Assembly (NCBI RefSeq): GCF_008195825.1
Contig: NZ_CP043329.1
Location: forward strand, 124,001 to 188,000
Direction: 5' to 3'
DNA from: Pedobacter aquae
GTDB taxonomy: Bacteria > Bacteroidota > Bacteroidia > Sphingobacteriales > Sphingobacteriaceae
DNA length: 64,000 nt
Shown: in pieces, positions 6,412-13,841 of the stretch
Layout: each line of letters begins with the position of its first letter
Numbering within the stretch: position 1 is the first letter of the stretch
Notes under the pieces: model-generated
The model's database searches: none
What the model saw: the letters and a program-made list of their open reading frames with translations, nothing else
Told to the model about the DNA's origin: nothing
Translations under genes and position numbers: made by a program

Positions 6412-6807
6412 CTATTTGCCTTTCAATCCTAATTTCTCCTCTAGCAGTTCGTGATATTTTTCAGAAAGCAATTGATACTTCTCATTCAACTGATGATATT
6501 TATTTAACCATCGTTCTTTTTCAGCCTCCAACTCTTCATAAGTCAACTTTTTAACCCCGTAAGCAACATGGCTATCCTTAAAAATATAATCCATCATATC
6601 CGGAAATTCATCAGAAAAATCATGACCTAGAACTTGGCCATATCTCGCTAATGTCTCATAAGGTAAATCAGCTTTCTTAATGTGTAAGTAAAAAGTCGGG
6701 TACTTATAACCTGCTTTTTCAGCAATTTCTTTAATAGACAAACGACTAGTTTTAGCTACTTTATGAAGTACTTCTCCTCTAGATATGTGAAATTTCTTCT
6801 TACCCAA
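6412..6807 (-). CDS. Helix-turn-helix protein with C-terminal coiled coil
   Basis: 131 residues. Residues 10-65 fit a helix-turn-helix (VLHKVAKTSRLSIKEIAEKAGY, then TFYLHIKKADLPYETLARYG), close to phage-repressor or transposon-associated regulators. Residues 88-127 form a heptad-rich helix (YEELEAEKERWLNKYHQL and on), probably for dimerisation. The only start that keeps the HTH whole is a TTG at 6807. Upstream lies about 100 bases of almost pure A/T. No neighbour is on the same transcript. It may control the island or itself. Confidence 0.6.
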   Translation of the reverse strand: MGKKKFHISRGEVLHKVAKTSRLSIKEIAEKAGYKYPTFYLHIKKADLPYETLARYGQVLGHDFSDEFPDMMDYIFKDSHVAYGVKKLTYEELEAEKERWLNKYHQLNEKYQLLSEKYHELLEEKLGLKGK

Positions 6808-7410
6808 TATTATAATATAAAAGAATACAATATAATGGATAAAAAAATCTAGTATATGTAAAATAAAAATTGTTTATATATATAATTTTATATATTATTG
6901 TATATTAATTTATATAAAGAAGGATTATTTTTGATAAAACATTTAAAAAATAGTCGACAAGATTAATAAGTTTTTTAATTTAGCGAGTACTCTTAAAATA
7001 TTTGAAGCACTCGCACTTAGAGTCTAGTTCTGGGAATCTGCTAAAATTCTAGGGAAACGAGACGATAAGTGAAAATGCTCATGCTAAAGGCGTGGGCTCA
7101 CTTATTCGTTTCCACAGGTATAGCAGAACCTCCAGAACAGTAAGTTGAGTTCCACGCCTTTAGTGTTTCCTGACTTATCAAAAGGCTCCTTAATATATTT
7201 ACCATGGAGCAACAAAATCAAATTTACGCCCTCATCATTTGCGCACCGGAATAGTGTTTAGGACACCAACCGGTCTGGCCCATTGCATCCCATGAAATAA
7301 GTTAATAGTTGTTAATAGCCCGGCCGGTTTTTTCAGACTGAGAAGAGTGGTAAATGATAACATTTCGACTCCGCTCAATGTGACATATCCTTAAACCCAA
7401 ACACAATAAA
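6808..7410. other. Gene-free stretch with structured RNA candidate
   Basis: 6808-6980 is extremely A/T-rich. 6983-7210 holds the structured element described separately. 7264-7335 has AACCGG and CCGGTTTTTT that could pair as a loose terminator with a long loop. About 7363-7385 is a short repeat (TTTCGACTCCGCTCAATGTG) of a type spread through Bacteroidota intergenic DNA. Confidence 0.5.
6983..7210. ncRNA. Structured non-coding RNA candidate, possibly 6S-like
   Basis: A long interrupted hairpin spans 7027-7138: GTTCTGG (7027-7033) with CCAGAAC (7132-7138), TCTGCT (7037-7042) with AGCAGA (7122-7127), GGAAACGA (7053-7060) with TCGTTTCC (7106-7113), ATAAGTGA (7065-7072) with TCACTTAT (7098-7105). 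The apical part carries CTAAAGGCGTGG (7084-7095), which is fully complementary to CCACGCCTTTAG (7152-7163), and GATAAGT (7064-7070) can instead pair with ACTTATC (7173-7179). So a pseudoknot or a second, exclusive fold is possible. Short hairpins flank it: GCGAGT/ACTCGC (6983-7014) and GCTCC/GGAGC (about 7184-7210). A rod with a central bubble recalls 6S RNA, but the strand and identity cannot be settled here. Confidence 0.5.
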
Positions 7411-8721
7411 ATGAACGATAAACATCGTATAGGATACATACTGCCTTTTTTTAGGAGGCATAATACCATCAAACTGCTTGTATTACTGCTAGTTGTGGTG
7501 GTATTTAGTAAAAAAGCCAAAGCACAACAAGCTTTACAGGTAGGAGACAGCATCCCTAAAACCTTATGGGATTTAAAGCTGCAAACCTTTAATCACCCGC
7601 AAGGGAAAAGCAACATCAGCCTGCAAGACTATAAAAGCAAACTCATCATCTTAGATTTTTGGAGTACCTGGTGTGGGGCCTGTGTGCAGGCTATACCAGA
7701 GCTTAAGCAGCTGCAAAAACAATTTTCAGATCGTTTACTCATCCTTCCCATAACAGCAGATAGTCCAGAACAGCTCAATAAGGCTAAGGCAAAAAATGCC
7801 AAATTAGCTGCTTTAGATTTATTTACCGTATTAGATAAACAGCAGCTAAAAGCTTATTTTCCTCACCAGTTAGTGCCTCATTTGGTATGGATAAGTCCAG
7901 AAGGTAGATATTTAGGTGCTACCTTGTTAGAATATGCCAATGCCCATACCATTCATCAAATCCTTTCAGGTAGGTCAGTTCAATGGTATCAGAAAAAAGA
8001 TGAAGATGCCTTTAATCCCAAACAACTATCGCTACATCAATACTTAAAAATAGATAGTAGCCAATATGTTTTACCATTTATAGATGGGCAAAGTGCCAGT
8101 AGCGGGATGGTTTTGGAGGCAGATTCTACGCTACGTTACTATATCATCAATGCCTCTATGGCTCAACTTTATGCCATAGCTACCCAAATGCAGGGTATAC
8201 CTTATGAGGAGAAAAGAAGAAAAATAAAACTTCAAGACACCCTTCGTTACCAGTATCATCAGGCAGCAGGCTATCAGCAAGAGTGGTTGCGTAAGTATGG
8301 CATATCTTACGAGCGTAGGCTTCCCAAAGGAACAAGTATAGCCACCAGAAATGCTTTACTACTGGCAGATTTAAATAGGCATTTCAGACTTAAAGGAGAG
8401 ATAGTAGCGCAAGAAACACCAGTTTGGCTATTAAAACAAAGCAGTACTACAACAGCTGCAACACTTAAAGAAGGCTTGTCTTTAGCCTCATGGATAGCAG
8501 CGTTAAATAAAAACCCTGCATTCCCTTGGGTGCTTAATGAAACCACTTTGTCAGCTAAGACTTTTTTACCTAGGCCAGAGGGGCAACAAAGTTTAGCAGC
8601 TTTACAAGTCCTCTTACAGCCTCTAGGTCTTTATCTGGAGCCAGCCACTAGAACGCTACCTACTTTCATCTTAGAAGAAAATCATCATCAAAACCACCTA
8701 AACACACTATCCAAACCATGA
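7411..8721 (+). CDS. TlpA-like thioredoxin-fold protein with C-terminal extension
   Basis: 436 residues. A membrane or signal segment lies at 20-38 (LLVLLLVVVVF, then KKAKAQ). The thioredoxin fold follows at about 41-195 with W87-C88-G-A-C91 and a likely cis-proline in VPHLVWI. The last 230 residues are not thioredoxin; the end (SLAALQVLLQPLGLYLE) resembles the C-terminus of DUF3738 proteins, a tentative match. Such TlpA-type proteins reduce disulfides in the periplasm. The stop overlaps the start of the SusC gene (ATGA at 8718-8721), so the two are translationally coupled, which suggests the redoxin serves the SusC/SusD uptake system, for instance by handling a thiol or metal ligand. Confidence 0.75.
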   Translation: MNDKHRIGYILPFFRRHNTIKLLVLLLVVVVFSKKAKAQQALQVGDSIPKTLWDLKLQTFNHPQGKSNISLQDYKSKLIILDFWSTWCGACVQAIPELKQLQKQFSDRLLILPITADSPEQLNKAKAKNAKLAALDLFTVLDKQQLKAYFPHQLVPHLVWISPEGRYLGATLLEYANAHTIHQILSGRSVQWYQKKDEDAFNPKQLSLHQYLKIDSSQYVLPFIDGQSASSGMVLEADSTLRYYIINASMAQLYAIATQMQGIPYEEKRRKIKLQDTLRYQYHQAAGYQQEWLRKYGISYERRLPKGTSIATRNALLLADLNRHFRLKGEIVAQETPVWLLKQSSTTTAATLKEGLSLASWIAALNKNPAFPWVLNETTLSAKTFLPRPEGQQSLAALQVLLQPLGLYLEPATRTLPTFILEENHHQNHLNTLSKP

Positions 8722-11700
8722 GAAAAATTCTATTAACGCTATTCCTCATCAGTATCATCGCTATAGCCTATGCACAAGAAACCTTAATAGGTACAGTGCT
8801 AGCAGGTAAAGAGCCTTTAGCAGGGGCAAACCTCAGACTACTAAAGTCAAAGCGAACAGCTACGGCTAATGAAGAAGGTAAATTTACATTTCAACAGGTT
8901 GCCCTGCCAGATACTTTACTGATTACTTTTATGGGCTTTAAAGCACAAGTAAAGCCTTTATACACCTTACAAAATCCTTTAACTATCAATTTAGAACCTC
9001 TAGCAGGTGAGCTTAAAGAAGTCATCGTAAACACAGGTTACCAGAAATTAGCAGCAGGTAGGGCAACAGGCTCTTACAGCCTGATAGATAGCAGCTTGTT
9101 TAACCGTCAGATAGGTACCGATATCTTCCGTCGTTTAGAAGGCATCACACCTTCCTTGCTTTACGACAAGCGTGGTGGAGAAGGAGCAGTAACCCGTTTT
9201 AGCATCAGAGGTTTAAGTACCCTCACGGCAGGAGTAAGTACACAACCCTTAATCATCTTAGATAATTTCCCTTATGAAGGCGATGTAGCACAAATCAATC
9301 CCAATGATGTAGAAAGCATCACCATCCTAAAAGATGCGGCAGCAGCAGCCATTTGGGGTACAAGGGCAGGTAATGGCGTGGTTGTCATCACCACACGTAA
9401 CGCAAAAAGCAAACAGCCCTTAAGTTTTAGTATGGTGGCTAATACCAGTGTGGTAGAAAAGCCAGATCTGTTTAGGTATCCTGCAATGTCATCCACAGAT
9501 TTCCTAAGTGTAGAGAAATACCTGTATGATAGAGGCTTTTACAATACGGCTATTACCAATGTACGTAACCGCCCGGTGCTATCGCCTTATGTAGAATTAC
9601 TGGAAGACCAAAGACTAGGACGAGTTAACCAGAACCAAGTAGCCACACAATTAAGTATTTGGGAGCAAACAGATATCAGAAATGATTTTAACAAGTATTT
9701 CCAACAGCAAGGCATCAGACAGCAGTATAGCCTGAATTATGCAGCAGGTGCTGGGCAATTGTCTTATGCGGGTAGCGTAGGCTTTGATAAAAACCGCTCT
9801 AATTTAGTTGGGGATGATGACCAGCGTTTAAGCATCAGAAACCGTGTAAGCTTAAAACCACACCCCAAACTACAGCTACAAGCAGGTATTTTATACACCC
9901 GTACACAGGCTCAGAACAATGCACTAGGAAGCTTAAATAGCTTAAGACCAAATGGTGGTAAAAGTAATTACTACCCTTATGCCCGTTTGGCAGATGAAGA
10001 AGGGAATGCGTTAGCCTTAGAACAAAATTACCGTAAAAGGTATACAGACACTACCGGAAGAGGACTCTTACAAGATTGGGCTTATCGGCCGCTGGATGAA
10101 ATAGCTTTGGCTAATAATCGCAACCGAAGCTATGATATGCTATTGGATGTTCAGGCAGATTATCAATTGTTTCCTACTTTGAAGGCAAGTATACAATACC
10201 GCTTTCAGAACAATAGCAGCCAGCAAAATAACAACTACAGCCCCGAGACCTATTTTACCCGTAACCTCATCAACAGATATAGCAGCATCAGTGGTAATAC
10301 CATAACAAGGCGTATACCATTAGGAAGCATCATAGACGAAACAAACGGACAATTACTCGCACATGGTTTAAGAGGTCAGCTCAATTTTAGCAAAGATTGG
10401 AATGTGCATCAATTAGAGCTACTTGCAGGAGCAGAACTCAGAGAGCGGGAAAACACAGCTACTACAAACCGGTTATATGGTTTTGATGATTTAATATTTC
10501 AAAGTAGCCCGGTAGATTTGGTAACAGCTTTTCCGATATACGGTTTACTTGCAGCCAATAGCAGTATACCAAATAATAATTTTCAAAGTTCCTTATTAAA
10601 CAGAAATGTATCCTACTTTTTTAATGCCAGTTACCATTATACCAAAAGATATAGCTTCTCTTTAAGTGCCAGAAGAGATGCATCAAACATATTTGGTGTT
10701 AATGCAAATCAGAAAGGCGTTCCATTGGGTTCTGTTGGCGCAGCATGGCATATAGACCAAGAGAATTTTTATAACTGGAGCTTTATGCCACGTTTAAATC
10801 TGAGGGCAAGCTATGGTTATACAGGAAATGTAAACAATTCAAGTTCTGCTTTAACCACCATCAGGTACGAACAATTATTTCTCAATATCAACACCTTTAC
10901 AGGTTTACCGCAAGCCACCATTGTCAATCCTCCCAATCCAGATTTAAGATGGGAAACTGTTGGGATATTTAATATCGCAGCAGATTTTGAAACAAAAGAC
11001 AGCAGATTAAGAGGTAACATCAGCTATTTTCATAAACAAGCAACAGACCTTATTGGGCTTGTAGCGGTAGATGCTACTACAGGCGGTACAGGTACAAGAA
11101 GCTTAAATAGCGCAGCTTTAAGAAACCAAGGATTTGAGCTAGAGCTACAAGCGCAAATTATGAAGCAAAATGATTTTCAATGGCAAAGTAATTTCCTTTT
11201 TTCTTCATCCAAGAATAAGGTAACCAAATATTTGTTCGAGCCTACTTCTCCCTCTTTTTATGTAGGAAATGGCAGCGGGATAACGCCGATTGTTGGGAAG
11301 CCAGCTTATGGTATTGTTAGCTATCGCTGGGCAGGCTTAGACCCCAGTAATGGCGACCCACAGCTACAGGTAAATGGAGCTATTTCTAAAGATTATACCG
11401 CTATACCCAATCAGGTAAAATTTGAGGATTTAATATTTCATGGTCCTTCTTTACCCGTATATTTTGGAGCTTTCCGTCAGGATTTTACCTATAAGCAAAT
11501 GAGCTTAAGTTTCAACATGAGTTATAAATTAGGTTATTTCTACCGCAGAACAGGTTTAAGCTATAGCAGTTTATATAATCAATGGGCTGCATCACCAGAA
11601 TATGCAATGCGCTGGCAGCAAACAGGTGATGAAGCCTTTACACAAGTTCCATCCATCATTTATCCTGCTAATGCCAATAGAGATAATGCTTACACACAAG

Positions 11701-11933
11701 CGGATATCATGGTAGAACCCGGAGACCATATTAGGTTACAGGATATTCGCTTAGCTTATCAATTTAAGGCATCTAAATTAAGAGCCCTTCATCTTAAACA
11801 CCTCAGTGTATTTATGTATGCTAATAATATTGGCCTTTTATGGAAAGCCAGTAAATTCCCATTTGACCCCGAGTATGGAGATAGCTTTATTCCGGTACGC
11901 ACCATCTCCTTCGGCTTAAAAACAGATTTCTAA
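8718..11933 (+). CDS. SusC/RagA-family TonB-linked outer membrane receptor
   Basis: 1071 residues. Signal peptide 1-19, then a carboxypeptidase-regulatory-like domain (about 20-98, TLIGTVLAGKEPLAGANLRL), a plug with RFSIRGLSTLTAGVSTQPL and the SusC signature ITILKDAAAAAIWGTRAGNG near 195-215, and a long β-barrel ending in FGLKTDF with an aromatic last residue. These receptors import ligands across the outer membrane together with a SusD lipoprotein, powered by TonB. It overlaps the TlpA-like gene by 4 bases and is followed 17 bases later by SusD. No sigma/anti-sigma pair and no glycoside hydrolase is nearby, so the substrate may not be a glycan. Confidence 0.93.
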   Translation: MRKILLTLFLISIIAIAYAQETLIGTVLAGKEPLAGANLRLLKSKRTATANEEGKFTFQQVALPDTLLITFMGFKAQVKPLYTLQNPLTINLEPLAGELKEVIVNTGYQKLAAGRATGSYSLIDSSLFNRQIGTDIFRRLEGITPSLLYDKRGGEGAVTRFSIRGLSTLTAGVSTQPLIILDNFPYEGDVAQINPNDVESITILKDAAAAAIWGTRAGNGVVVITTRNAKSKQPLSFSMVANTSVVEKPDLFRYPAMSSTDFLSVEKYLYDRGFYNTAITNVRNRPVLSPYVELLEDQRLGRVNQNQVATQLSIWEQTDIRNDFNKYFQQQGIRQQYSLNYAAGAGQLSYAGSVGFDKNRSNLVGDDDQRLSIRNRVSLKPHPKLQLQAGILYTRTQAQNNALGSLNSLRPNGGKSNYYPYARLADEEGNALALEQNYRKRYTDTTGRGLLQDWAYRPLDEIALANNRNRSYDMLLDVQADYQLFPTLKASIQYRFQNNSSQQNNNYSPETYFTRNLINRYSSISGNTITRRIPLGSIIDETNGQLLAHGLRGQLNFSKDWNVHQLELLAGAELRERENTATTNRLYGFDDLIFQSSPVDLVTAFPIYGLLAANSSIPNNNFQSSLLNRNVSYFFNASYHYTKRYSFSLSARRDASNIFGVNANQKGVPLGSVGAAWHIDQENFYNWSFMPRLNLRASYGYTGNVNNSSSALTTIRYEQLFLNINTFTGLPQATIVNPPNPDLRWETVGIFNIAADFETKDSRLRGNISYFHKQATDLIGLVAVDATTGGTGTRSLNSAALRNQGFELELQAQIMKQNDFQWQSNFLFSSSKNKVTKYLFEPTSPSFYVGNGSGITPIVGKPAYGIVSYRWAGLDPSNGDPQLQVNGAISKDYTAIPNQVKFEDLIFHGPSLPVYFGAFRQDFTYKQMSLSFNMSYKLGYFYRRTGLSYSSLYNQWAASPEYAMRWQQTGDEAFTQVPSIIYPANANRDNAYTQADIMVEPGDHIRLQDIRLAYQFKASKLRALHLKHLSVFMYANNIGLLWKASKFPFDPEYGDSFIPVRTISFGLKTDF

Positions 11934-11950: not shown

Positions 11951-13303
11951 ATGAAAAAAATATATATGCCTTACCTGCTCATCCTCATAAGTATTTCCTT
12001 TTGCGCTTGTCAGGAATTTTTGGAAGCCAAGCCAGACCGGGCTTTAGCCACACCTAGTACTTTAAAAGATATAGAAGCCATCCTCAATAACAATCAAATG
12101 AATACGCTTTATCCCATAGCAGGGGATATTATGGCAGATGATTATTATTTGGAAGATAATATCTGGAATGCATTAACAGATGTAGTGGCAAGAGATAGCT
12201 ATGTATGGGCTACTACAACCTACCATGATTTTGATTGGCAAAATGCTTATAACTTAATCTTTAGAGCCAATGTAGCTTTAGACCAGCTAGAGCAAGTAAC
12301 AGCCGATGATGCAAGTAAACAGACCTTAAGAGGTACAGCTTTGTTCTTGAGAAGCTATAATTTTTATCAACTATTACAAATCTTCACTTTACCGTACAGA
12401 CAAGAAACGGCAGCACAAGAGCTGGGTATTCCGCTAAAGCTATCAAGTGATATCAATGAAACTATCAGACGTTCTACCTTAGAAGAATCATATCAAAGAG
12501 TAATTACAGACTTAAAAGTAGCAGCCAGTTTATTACCTGCAACCAGAGCTTTTAAAACGCAACCTTCAAAGGCAGCCGCTTATGCACAGCTTGCAAGAAC
12601 CTATTTGGTGATGGCAGATGATGAAAATGCAGTACGCTATGCAGATTCTGCTTTGGCGCTTCAATCGCAATTGATAGACTATAATAGCTTAAATGCTACA
12701 GCAGCAAATCCTTTCCCTTTGTTTAATGCAGAAGTGATTTTCCAAGCCTTTAATACCGGTAGAGGTGGTGTTTTTCAGCAAACAAGGGCAAGAGTAGATT
12801 CTACCTTATACCGTTCGTATAGCACCAATGATTTAAGAAGAAGCTTGTTTTTTACACGTAATAGCAATGGTAGCTTTGCTTTTAAGGGAGATTATTCTGG
12901 AAGGAATACAGGTAATTTATTTGCCGGAATCGCCACAGATGAGCTTTATCTGATTAAGGCAGAATGCCAGATAAGAGCAAATAGGGTAGCTGAAGGTTTG
13001 GCAACCCTTAATAGTTTAATGTTGCGAAGATTTAGGACTAACACCTTTGTGCCCTTTACGGCAAGCAATAGACTAGAAGCGTTGAAATTAGTTTTACTAG
13101 AAAGAAGAAAGCAACTGCTGTTTAGGTCAAACAGTCGTTGGGCTGATATAAGAAGATTGGGTGGCGAACCAGATTTGGCCATAACCTTAAGACGTAGGAT
13201 AGCAGGTTCTATCATTGAACTGACCACAGGAGACTTGCGCTTTGCCAATTTAATCCCTCAAAATACCATAGTGTTGAGTGGGATTGAACAAAACAGGCGT
13301 TAG
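11951..13303 (+). CDS. SusD/RagB-family ligand-binding lipoprotein
   Basis: 450 residues. The N-terminus is a lipoprotein signal with a likely acylated C20 (SISFCACQEF). The body is helical and TPR-like as in SusD (NLIFRANVALDQL, SKAAAYAQLARTYLVMADDENA), and the C-terminal half has ELYLIKAECQIRANRVAEGL and RRKQLLFRSNSRWADIRRLG, typical of the RagB/SusD fold. It acts as the lid of the SusC barrel on the cell surface. Third gene of the TlpA-SusC-SusD operon; a strong hairpin at 13320-13345 ends the unit. Confidence 0.9.
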   Translation: MKKIYMPYLLILISISFCACQEFLEAKPDRALATPSTLKDIEAILNNNQMNTLYPIAGDIMADDYYLEDNIWNALTDVVARDSYVWATTTYHDFDWQNAYNLIFRANVALDQLEQVTADDASKQTLRGTALFLRSYNFYQLLQIFTLPYRQETAAQELGIPLKLSSDINETIRRSTLEESYQRVITDLKVAASLLPATRAFKTQPSKAAAYAQLARTYLVMADDENAVRYADSALALQSQLIDYNSLNATAANPFPLFNAEVIFQAFNTGRGGVFQQTRARVDSTLYRSYSTNDLRRSLFFTRNSNGSFAFKGDYSGRNTGNLFAGIATDELYLIKAECQIRANRVAEGLATLNSLMLRRFRTNTFVPFTASNRLEALKLVLLERRKQLLFRSNSRWADIRRLGGEPDLAITLRRRIAGSIIELTTGDLRFANLIPQNTIVLSGIEQNRR

Positions 13304-13352: not shown

Positions 13353-13670
13353 TTAGTTGCGCACAAAAACATCAGAATTAGATTCGTCTTTGTTTTGTAT
13401 TCTACTTTCTAAAGCAGTGCCGGCAATCAAAGGAAATCCAGGGTTGTTAGGATCTTCTTCGGCTAAAATAGTACATACAACTTGGCTACCAGCCGCACAA
13501 GAAGGAGCAGATGCGGGTTGATACTCCATTTGGTCTGTAGCTACGTTATTACCACTATACTCCCAATACTGTAGGGAGGAAGCATTTCCCTCTGCTTTAA
13601 AAGCAGAGAATAAAACAGCGCCTGAGATTGCTGCTACAGCAATCATGGGCATGATGAATTTTTTCTTCAT
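13353..13670 (-). CDS. Small secreted protein, DUF6520-like
   Basis: 105 residues from the chosen start (ATG at 13670); an in-frame ATG at 13703 would add 11 residues before the signal peptide and looks less likely. The N-terminus is a clear export signal (MKKKFIMPMIAVAAISGAVL). The mature part is short, with two cysteines (C in APSCAAG and QVVCTIL) and a Pro/Asn-rich end. This pattern matches the DUF6520 group of small exported Bacteroidota proteins that often sit near outer-membrane transport genes; their role is unknown. It points toward SusD and shares its terminator. Confidence 0.55.
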   Translation of the reverse strand: MKKKFIMPMIAVAAISGAVLFSAFKAEGNASSLQYWEYSGNNVATDQMEYQPASAPSCAAGSQVVCTILAEEDPNNPGFPLIAGTALESRIQNKDESNSDVFVRN

Positions 13671-13841
13671 CGTAGATTTGGCTTTGCTACATCTCGAAGC
13701 CATAGAGTTTTACATGATGATGCCTACTCTTTTTAAGGGTTTTCGGCATCCCCCTTTCATAGGTAGAAATGTGAGAACAGCGGTGGTGTTTACTGCCACC
13801 ACCAGCTGTTAACAGGGGATATCTTGCAGCTATCCCACTGA

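Follow-up and report, generated by a model that had tools for sequence, protein, structure and literature searches.

Genomic context of the element

SusCD systems are main nutrient importers of Bacteroidota. One operon of this kind lies on the plus strand of the window, that is, the whole 64,000-nucleotide stretch of the Pedobacter aquae genome analyzed here, and the region between its first gene and a small divergent gene contains the element described below. Segments of the element are numbered 1 to 4, and 1:2, 2:3 and 3:4 denote pairings between them.

6412–6807, minus strand: divergent small gene (131 aa) in the slot held by an XRE-type gene in many relatives; product weakly HTH-like
6976–6983, plus strand: degenerate Bacteroidota -7 promoter motif, TAATTTAG against TAnnTTTG, one base off
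6990–7169, plus strand: structured RNA, putative leader, with both ends predicted
7006–7027, plus strand: segment 1, partner of 7058–7079 in state 2 (helix scan)
7006–7011/7074–7079, 7012–7018/7067–7071 and 7023–7027/7058–7062, plus strand: helices of 1:2 (helix scan)
7027–7138, plus strand: rod of state 1 (covariation and helix scans)
7027–7034/7131–7138, 7037–7043/7121–7127 and 7053–7058/7108–7113, plus strand: lower rod helices (helix scans)
7064–7071/7099–7106 and 7077–7085/7089–7097, plus strand: upper rod helices (helix scans)
7058–7085, plus strand: segment 2, pairing with segment 1 in state 2 and with segment 3 in the rod
7089–7106, plus strand: segment 3, which forms either the 3' side of the rod top or the 5' side of a terminator-like hairpin
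7139–7163, plus strand: segment 4, with 7139–7144 facing 7101–7106 and 7151–7158 facing 7089–7096
7159–7168, plus strand: U-rich stretch 3' of segment 4, interrupted in this copy (TTTAGTGTTT)
7411–8721, plus strand: TlpA-like thioredoxin-fold protein, first gene of the operon (Pfam AhpC-TSA, E 3.7e-11)
8718–11933, plus strand: SusC/RagA TonB-linked outer-membrane transporter (NCBIfam TIGR04056, 466.8 bits, cut-off 368.25)
11951–13303, plus strand: SusD-like lipoprotein (Pfam SusD-like_3, E 1.7e-35)

The sole Rfam match at gathering score in the 64 kb is a DUF805b RNA (RF02914) on the minus strand at 13721–13756 (53.5 bits, cut-off 35.6), some 18 nt upstream of the first ATG in a small minus-strand ORF (13353–13703) with a sub-threshold match to DUF6520.

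A structured RNA family in Bacteroidota

The minimum-energy fold of the plus strand across 6983–7210 (228 nt, -77.4 kcal/mol) includes the rod at 7027–7138 that an earlier note, made from the sequence alone, had proposed, and it is more stable than expected (z -5.86 against 200 dinucleotide shuffles, none of which was as low). The strand is not given by folding alone because the reverse strand of the same region likewise folds well (z -5.31). The complementarity reported between CTAAAGGCGTGG (7084–7095) and 7152–7163 is exact, and the two stretches are the sole exact copies in the 3.85 Mb genome; the two alternative folds of the window copy that are considered below are near-equal in energy (-63.6 and -62.7).

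At the gathering score, neither the window copy nor any of 12 related loci is matched by a family of Rfam 15, Bacteroidales-1 and Flavo-1 included, so that the search for 6S, Bacteroidales-1 and Flavo-1 that had been proposed came back empty for this element. Even at E values up to 10 no family matches the plus strand of the region, where the three weak matches, all far below cut-off, lie on the reverse strand. This comparison covers families with an Rfam number, which some Bacteroidota motifs in the table of Weinberg 2010 (PMC2864571), such as Bacteroides-2 and GUCCY-hairpin, do not have there. A literature search by title and abstract start, with most subscription papers outside its scope, found no description of this RNA.

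A DNA search of 301 Sphingobacteriaceae genomes placed the element in 34 genomes from 7 of 25 genera, at 41 places (the family set), and the 30 of these given as loci were used to build a covariance model, R1. At an E value of 0.001 the model matched 262 of 399 Sphingobacteriaceae genomes (18 of 25 genera), with up to six matches per genome, and 51 of the 395 genomes (24 of 171 genera) in a draw across the phylum that includes some Sphingobacteriaceae; copy numbers are lower bounds, with eight candidates per genome scored in the family and phylum runs. A search of GTDB genomes with a core pattern yielded 78 stretches (the named set) from Flavobacterium, Salegentibacter, Mucilaginibacter, Pedobacter, Algoriphagus, Niastella, Paludibacteraceae and others, all of which are matched by the covariance model, including two that the end of the stretch truncates. 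The model also scores the window at 148 bits (7020–7160) and a second, divergent copy in the Pedobacter aquae genome at 57 bits (G000:C1:3396297-3396445; L123 1501–1649). A phage or plasmid element was rejected: the core pattern had no match in viral contigs, and blastn with the window copy returned nothing from phage or plasmid collections. Positions 6990–7169 of the plus strand are one copy of a genuine structured RNA family present in hundreds of Bacteroidota genomes, and the original observation was right and bigger than stated.

Covariation in two incompatible folds

A scan of all column pairs in 30 sequences, with no prior structure, produced 12 helix runs. Five of these are the rod helices and three are incompatible with the rod; the remaining four have 0–2 double-changed pairs each. 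The same scan of an alignment of 126 distinct sequences (A7) gave a longer list, from which the rod and a second nested set were chosen by the analyst; unused runs with counts like the chosen ones were 65-199 (28 cells), 50-66 (21), 19-48 (18), 49-125 (15) and 193-261 (14). Helix 7053–7058/7108–7113, whose columns are misaligned in A7, was omitted from the A7 structures and is included in a separate count of compensatory changes.

Across the 126 sequences the rod is paired in 95.0% of cells, with both-side changes in 19 of 32 pairs (14.9 in shuffles; 3 of 500 as high) and a covariation of 0.354 (0.153 shuffled; 0 of 500 as high). The second fold, which consists of two hairpins, is paired in 94.4% of cells, with both-side changes in 27 of 36 pairs (11.7 in shuffles) and a covariation of 0.246 (0.175 shuffled), no shuffle being as high on any measure; since the shuffles ignore relatedness, none of these figures is a probability. 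The two folds have columns in common, so that their counts are not fully independent, which weighs against the interpretation advanced below. When partners are slid by 1–3 columns, pairing falls to 27–58% in both folds. Furthermore, G-U pairs far exceed A-C pairs (405:70 and 657:56 in the two folds), which identifies the plus-strand RNA as the conserved entity.

Both the rod and the 7089–7096/7151–7158 pairing are kept with compensatory changes across relatives, which supports the earlier proposals of a structured RNA that has two mutually exclusive folds and of a switch. A lack of covariation in either set of pairs, named in the earlier note as a ground for refutation, is not what the alignments show. 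Further alternative partners are conserved as well, namely 7101–7106 with 7139–7144 and, upstream, 7006–7027 with 7058–7079; the latter pairing, that of segment 1, was absent from the earlier note, and 14 of 15 pairs in helices 2–4 of the second fold show both-side changes. A pseudoknot of the rod with segment 4, previously considered, is not needed because two nested hairpins explain the same covariation. The other proposed downstream pairing, GATAAGT (7064–7070) with ACTTATC (7173–7179), is present in the window, yet conserved at most within the genus: ACTTATC or CTTATC occurs 3' of the RNA in only two of the 78 named-set loci (the window and L147), with a similar stretch in L002–L004 of the same genus, and it was rejected as a conserved second pairing. 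Collectively, the covariation indicates an RNA family that is predicted to adopt two mutually exclusive shapes.

The bases around the second rod helix (GAAA, AUUU, GG and CCUC) are strongly conserved, also in the divergent copies described next; they may serve as a ligand- or protein-binding site or take part in two short local hairpins of the second fold (runs 76-97 and 193-218).

Pairing in divergent copies

Twenty low-scoring places of the phylum draw (39.6–75.9 bits), which played no part in finding the pairings, were picked by hand; four are divergent copies in Sphingobacteriaceae genomes and the rest come from elsewhere in the phylum. Their segments vary in sequence, with GGACGC/GCGTCC replacing GGCGTGGG/CCCACGCC in six. 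Own partners exceeded swapped ones for 2:3 (z 6.7) and 3:4 (z 5.3); the rod result is partly built in because the finding model encodes the rod, whereas 3:4 and 1:2 lie outside the model. Two values tell against an attenuator, namely the weak result for 1:2 (z 2.7) and that for the control pairing 1:4 (z 2.0), the other controls being 1:3 (z -1.7) and 2:4 (z 0.3). In 71 pattern-selected loci, swapping segment 4 made a small difference (own 22.45, swapped 21.77, sd 0.18) because the search pattern had fixed segment 3, and the test in divergent copies is less biased.

Promoter motif, U-run and predicted order of folding

The Bacteroidota -7 promoter element has the form TAnnTTTG, which the standard promoter scan does not cover. 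In 56 of 73 loci this motif is found 75–35 nt upstream of the point where the model begins, and it occurs only four times in the 18.7 kb between the RNA and the first gene of 72 loci. Many loci have a second TAnnTTTG some 20 nt further upstream. At the other end, TTTTT follows segment 4 in 61 of 71 loci, compared with 7 of 71 for a stretch 25–44 nt further on. Separate intrinsic terminators between RNA and gene were rejected, given that they were predicted in 7 of 68 loci against 1–6 in five shuffles, with no clear excess, and that a terminator scan of 6800–7450 in the window found none.

In simulated growing transcripts, 1:2 is predicted to pair first (mean 0.79) and to give way to the rod base (0.89), with which a completed 3:4 then competes (mean 0.17, and 0.73 for the window copy). 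Several results of this analysis count against attenuation: at full length the rod base exceeds 0.5 in 100 of 126 sequences and 3:4 in 22, the minimum-energy fold contains 3:4 in 18 of 69, and the strands of 3:4 are separated by 54 nt (7097–7150 in the window), a wide interval for an intrinsic terminator even if some of it pairs.

Neighboring genes

The nearest downstream ORF runs in the same direction as the RNA at 72 of 75 named loci, 36 of 41 family-set loci and all 20 divergent loci (minimum lengths of 70, 90 and 60 aa, respectively); the opposite orientation in 5 of the 41 family-set loci speaks against an attenuator. The distance to the first ORF has a median of 302 nt (range 5–588, 72 loci). 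In named loci the next gene is mostly SusC-like, and the first same-strand proteins of at least 100 aa in the 72 loci include matches to the TonB-receptor plug (42), CarbopepD_reg_2 (43), sigma-70 region 4 (nine) and redoxin (six). Protein clusters of the window recur in the family set (SusC in 30, SusD in 29 and the TlpA-like protein in 27 of 41 loci). Behind divergent copies, the first ORF begins 30–66 nt past the model end in nine of 20 loci, and many products appear by eye to be secreted or lipoprotein-like; a lipoprotein-like gene starts about 60 nt behind the second Pedobacter aquae copy.

On the upstream side, 62 of 68 named, 24 of 41 family-set and 1 of 20 divergent loci have an XRE-type gene in divergent orientation at a distance of up to 900 nt, as judged with an HMM built from 56 of the 68 upstream proteins; of these 68, 46 match Pfam HTH_26 and 45 match HTH_3. 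Under the 90-aa limit a divergent upstream gene was counted in only 16 of the 41 family-set loci because many XRE genes encode about 75 aa. The 131-aa protein in the window showed two Pfam matches below cut-off (TetR_N, E 0.0032; HTH_26, E 0.072), no NCBIfam match and no match to the HMM from the XRE proteins of relatives; with the window counted, 5 of 41 family-set loci have a member of its cluster at the corresponding position. In 27 of 67 loci the stretch separating the XRE-type gene from the RNA contains a palindrome scoring at least 10, compared with 1.4 expected from single-base shuffles and 1 of 64 downstream of the RNA. In loci L142–L219 such palindromes lie at about -150 to -60 and differ in sequence from locus to locus, which makes private operators a possible interpretation; the palindrome of the window is AT-rich only, with a score of 8.

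A candidate transcription attenuator

The RNA probably sets the transcription of the outer-membrane transporter (or other) genes downstream, and it is likely, by prediction, to be a cis-acting attenuator or an orphan riboswitch. What computation established, that is, the family, its strand, both folds, the U-run in most relatives, the promoter position and the gene order, is best accounted for by a cis-acting attenuator; a free sRNA, a processive antitermination element, a DNA site and 6S RNA suit it less well. The attenuator is argued for by the compensatory changes in two incompatible folds, the G-U:A-C asymmetry, the U-run and the ordered refolding, by the promoter motif before the RNA with few motifs behind it and no clear terminator excess, by same-strand ORFs with TonB-receptor-like first proteins, and by 2:3 and 3:4 beating swapped partners in divergent loci. 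We hold it less firmly because of the analyst's choice of helices and the two mismatches in 1:2 of the window copy (7010–7075 and 7026–7059, 2 of 16 pairs); together with the broken U-run and the promoter motif one base off, these make the window copy imperfect, which also counts against it. The second helix of 3:4 reaches 12 bp in this copy, extending to 7163.

In the proposed mechanism the RNA would be the 5' leader of the downstream operon. State 2 would combine the 1:2 and 3:4 hairpins, with 3:4 and the following U-run serving as terminator, and in state 1 pairing 2:3, held by the rod base, would act as antiterminator. As the transcript grows, the 1:2 hairpin would form, next the rod, and the contest would begin when segment 4 emerges; a signal would tip the balance and so set read-through into the SusCD-type operon. 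Its most likely reader is the group of conserved bases flanking the second rod helix, to which the 5' strand contributes GAAA and AUUU and the 3' strand GG and CCUC. Termination should thus take place at 3:4, and the rod should be the ON state; we infer that RNA and operon share one transcript and that a ligand or protein partner exists. In loci of the SusCD kind, the upstream XRE-type gene and the locus-specific palindrome would provide a second, promoter-level control.

A stand-alone trans-acting sRNA would have its own promoter, the rod as its working form and 3:4 as an ordinary terminator, the operon being served by leakage or an unseen promoter. The promoter motif and U-run that flank the RNA on both sides, the up to six copies per genome and the full-length rod favored in most sequences would suit it, but we consider it unlikely, given the near-fixed orientation to the next gene (72 of 75), the scarcity of promoter motifs between RNA and gene and the closeness of the first ORF in nine of 20 divergent loci; in its simple form, it would need neither segment 1 nor a conserved contest over segment 3. 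Still less probable is a processive antitermination RNA comparable to phage put and EAR, which act on RNA polymerase in cis; it would aid passage through a long operon. The terminator-like 3:4 hairpin and U-run within the element, the short genes behind many divergent copies and the lack of a clear excess of separate terminators downstream all oppose such a role, which the leader position before long operons (median 302 nt to the first ORF) and the large rod with strongly conserved internal-loop bases would otherwise favor.

That the conserved entity is DNA, a recombination or integration site acting as folded single-stranded DNA, seems highly improbable: the element is rich in inverted repeats, has several copies per genome and in some loci lies near recombinase-like genes (L112, L057, L058, L063), but G-U pairs (405 and 657) outnumber A-C pairs (70 and 56) as strand-specific RNA selection would produce, the promoter motif is aligned to the RNA, and phage, plasmid and viral collections gave no match by blastn or core pattern. 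The earlier note had named 6S RNA as the nearest shape, and the long rod with internal loops is indeed 6S-like. We nevertheless give a 6S RNA or 6S paralogue hardly any credence, and 6S and the other Rfam families were rejected as the identity of the element for want of matches to it in the window, in the 12 related loci and, for RF00013, in the genome. Neither 6S nor 6S-Flavo matches the region at E up to 10, RF00013 is without a match in a genome search that succeeded in 5 of 14 control genomes (the RF01685 search, also empty, is uninformative because it was silent in every control genome), and the element has multiple operon-linked copies and a second conserved fold.

Comparison with known regulatory RNAs

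In trp-type attenuators, four leader segments before an operon form either 1:2 and a 3:4 terminator or a 2:3 antiterminator, and the cis-acting attenuator proposed here has the same arrangement. It departs from them in that additional covarying rod helices secure the antiterminator, its terminator strands lie 54 nt apart and one family precedes many unrelated genes; no conserved leader peptide over segment 1 was seen by eye in alignments, in which indels break the frames. Orphan riboswitch candidates typically combine a conserved core, multiple copies, a position before transporter or envelope genes and a terminator-type expression platform, all of which this family shares, the platform by prediction, differing in that it has no Rfam match.

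Two published descriptions set other Bacteroidota RNAs apart. The FopS sRNAs of Bacteroides are presented there as trans-acting RNAs of ~65–70 nt that bind the susC start region, with which their R1' seed pairs (PMC11697453). Both they and our family are paralogous multi-copy RNAs tied to SusC-type transporters; by that description, they differ from our RNA, which is ~180 nt long, adjoins its operon and has two covarying folds. Rfp18 of Flavobacterium psychrophilum, likewise a conserved structured flavobacterial RNA, is reported to target protease mRNAs by way of its third stem-loop (PMC9723704). Both were rejected as the same RNA on these descriptions only.

If this is a shared leader RNA at up to six sites per genome, it would offer one handle on many SusCD systems, and its ligand or protein partner could be sought directly. 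Two complete, covarying and incompatible folds in one natural RNA also provide a clean model of conformational switching. A wider proposal, which strikes us as possible rather than probable, is that the family is a phylum-wide, unrecognised riboswitch-like sensor of Bacteroidota that reads one common cellular signal through its conserved core and imposes bistable attenuation on nutrient-import, sigma-factor and secreted-protein gene sets, often stacked on a private XRE repressor.

Additional observations at related loci

In addition to the common gene order, several loci show particular arrangements. A conserved ORF of ~90–130 aa (core LFWKxFQCWVTxDC-like) lies between the RNA and the TlpA/SusC operon in L040, L041, L044, L046, L054, L065, L070 and L089. 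Flavobacterium SusC-SusD operons of this type can include a peptidase-like third gene (876 aa; L144 48–2675, minus strand), whose product matches the NCBIfam lasso isopeptidase and Dpp5 models below cut-off. A gene labeled by eye as serine-recombinase-like lies behind the RNA in L112 and, as cluster c34, in L057, L058 and L063. Finally, L103–L108 and L112 carry very similar RNA copies before a gene that by eye resembles a response regulator, at least two of them in genome G306, and these copies are perhaps a mobile sub-family.
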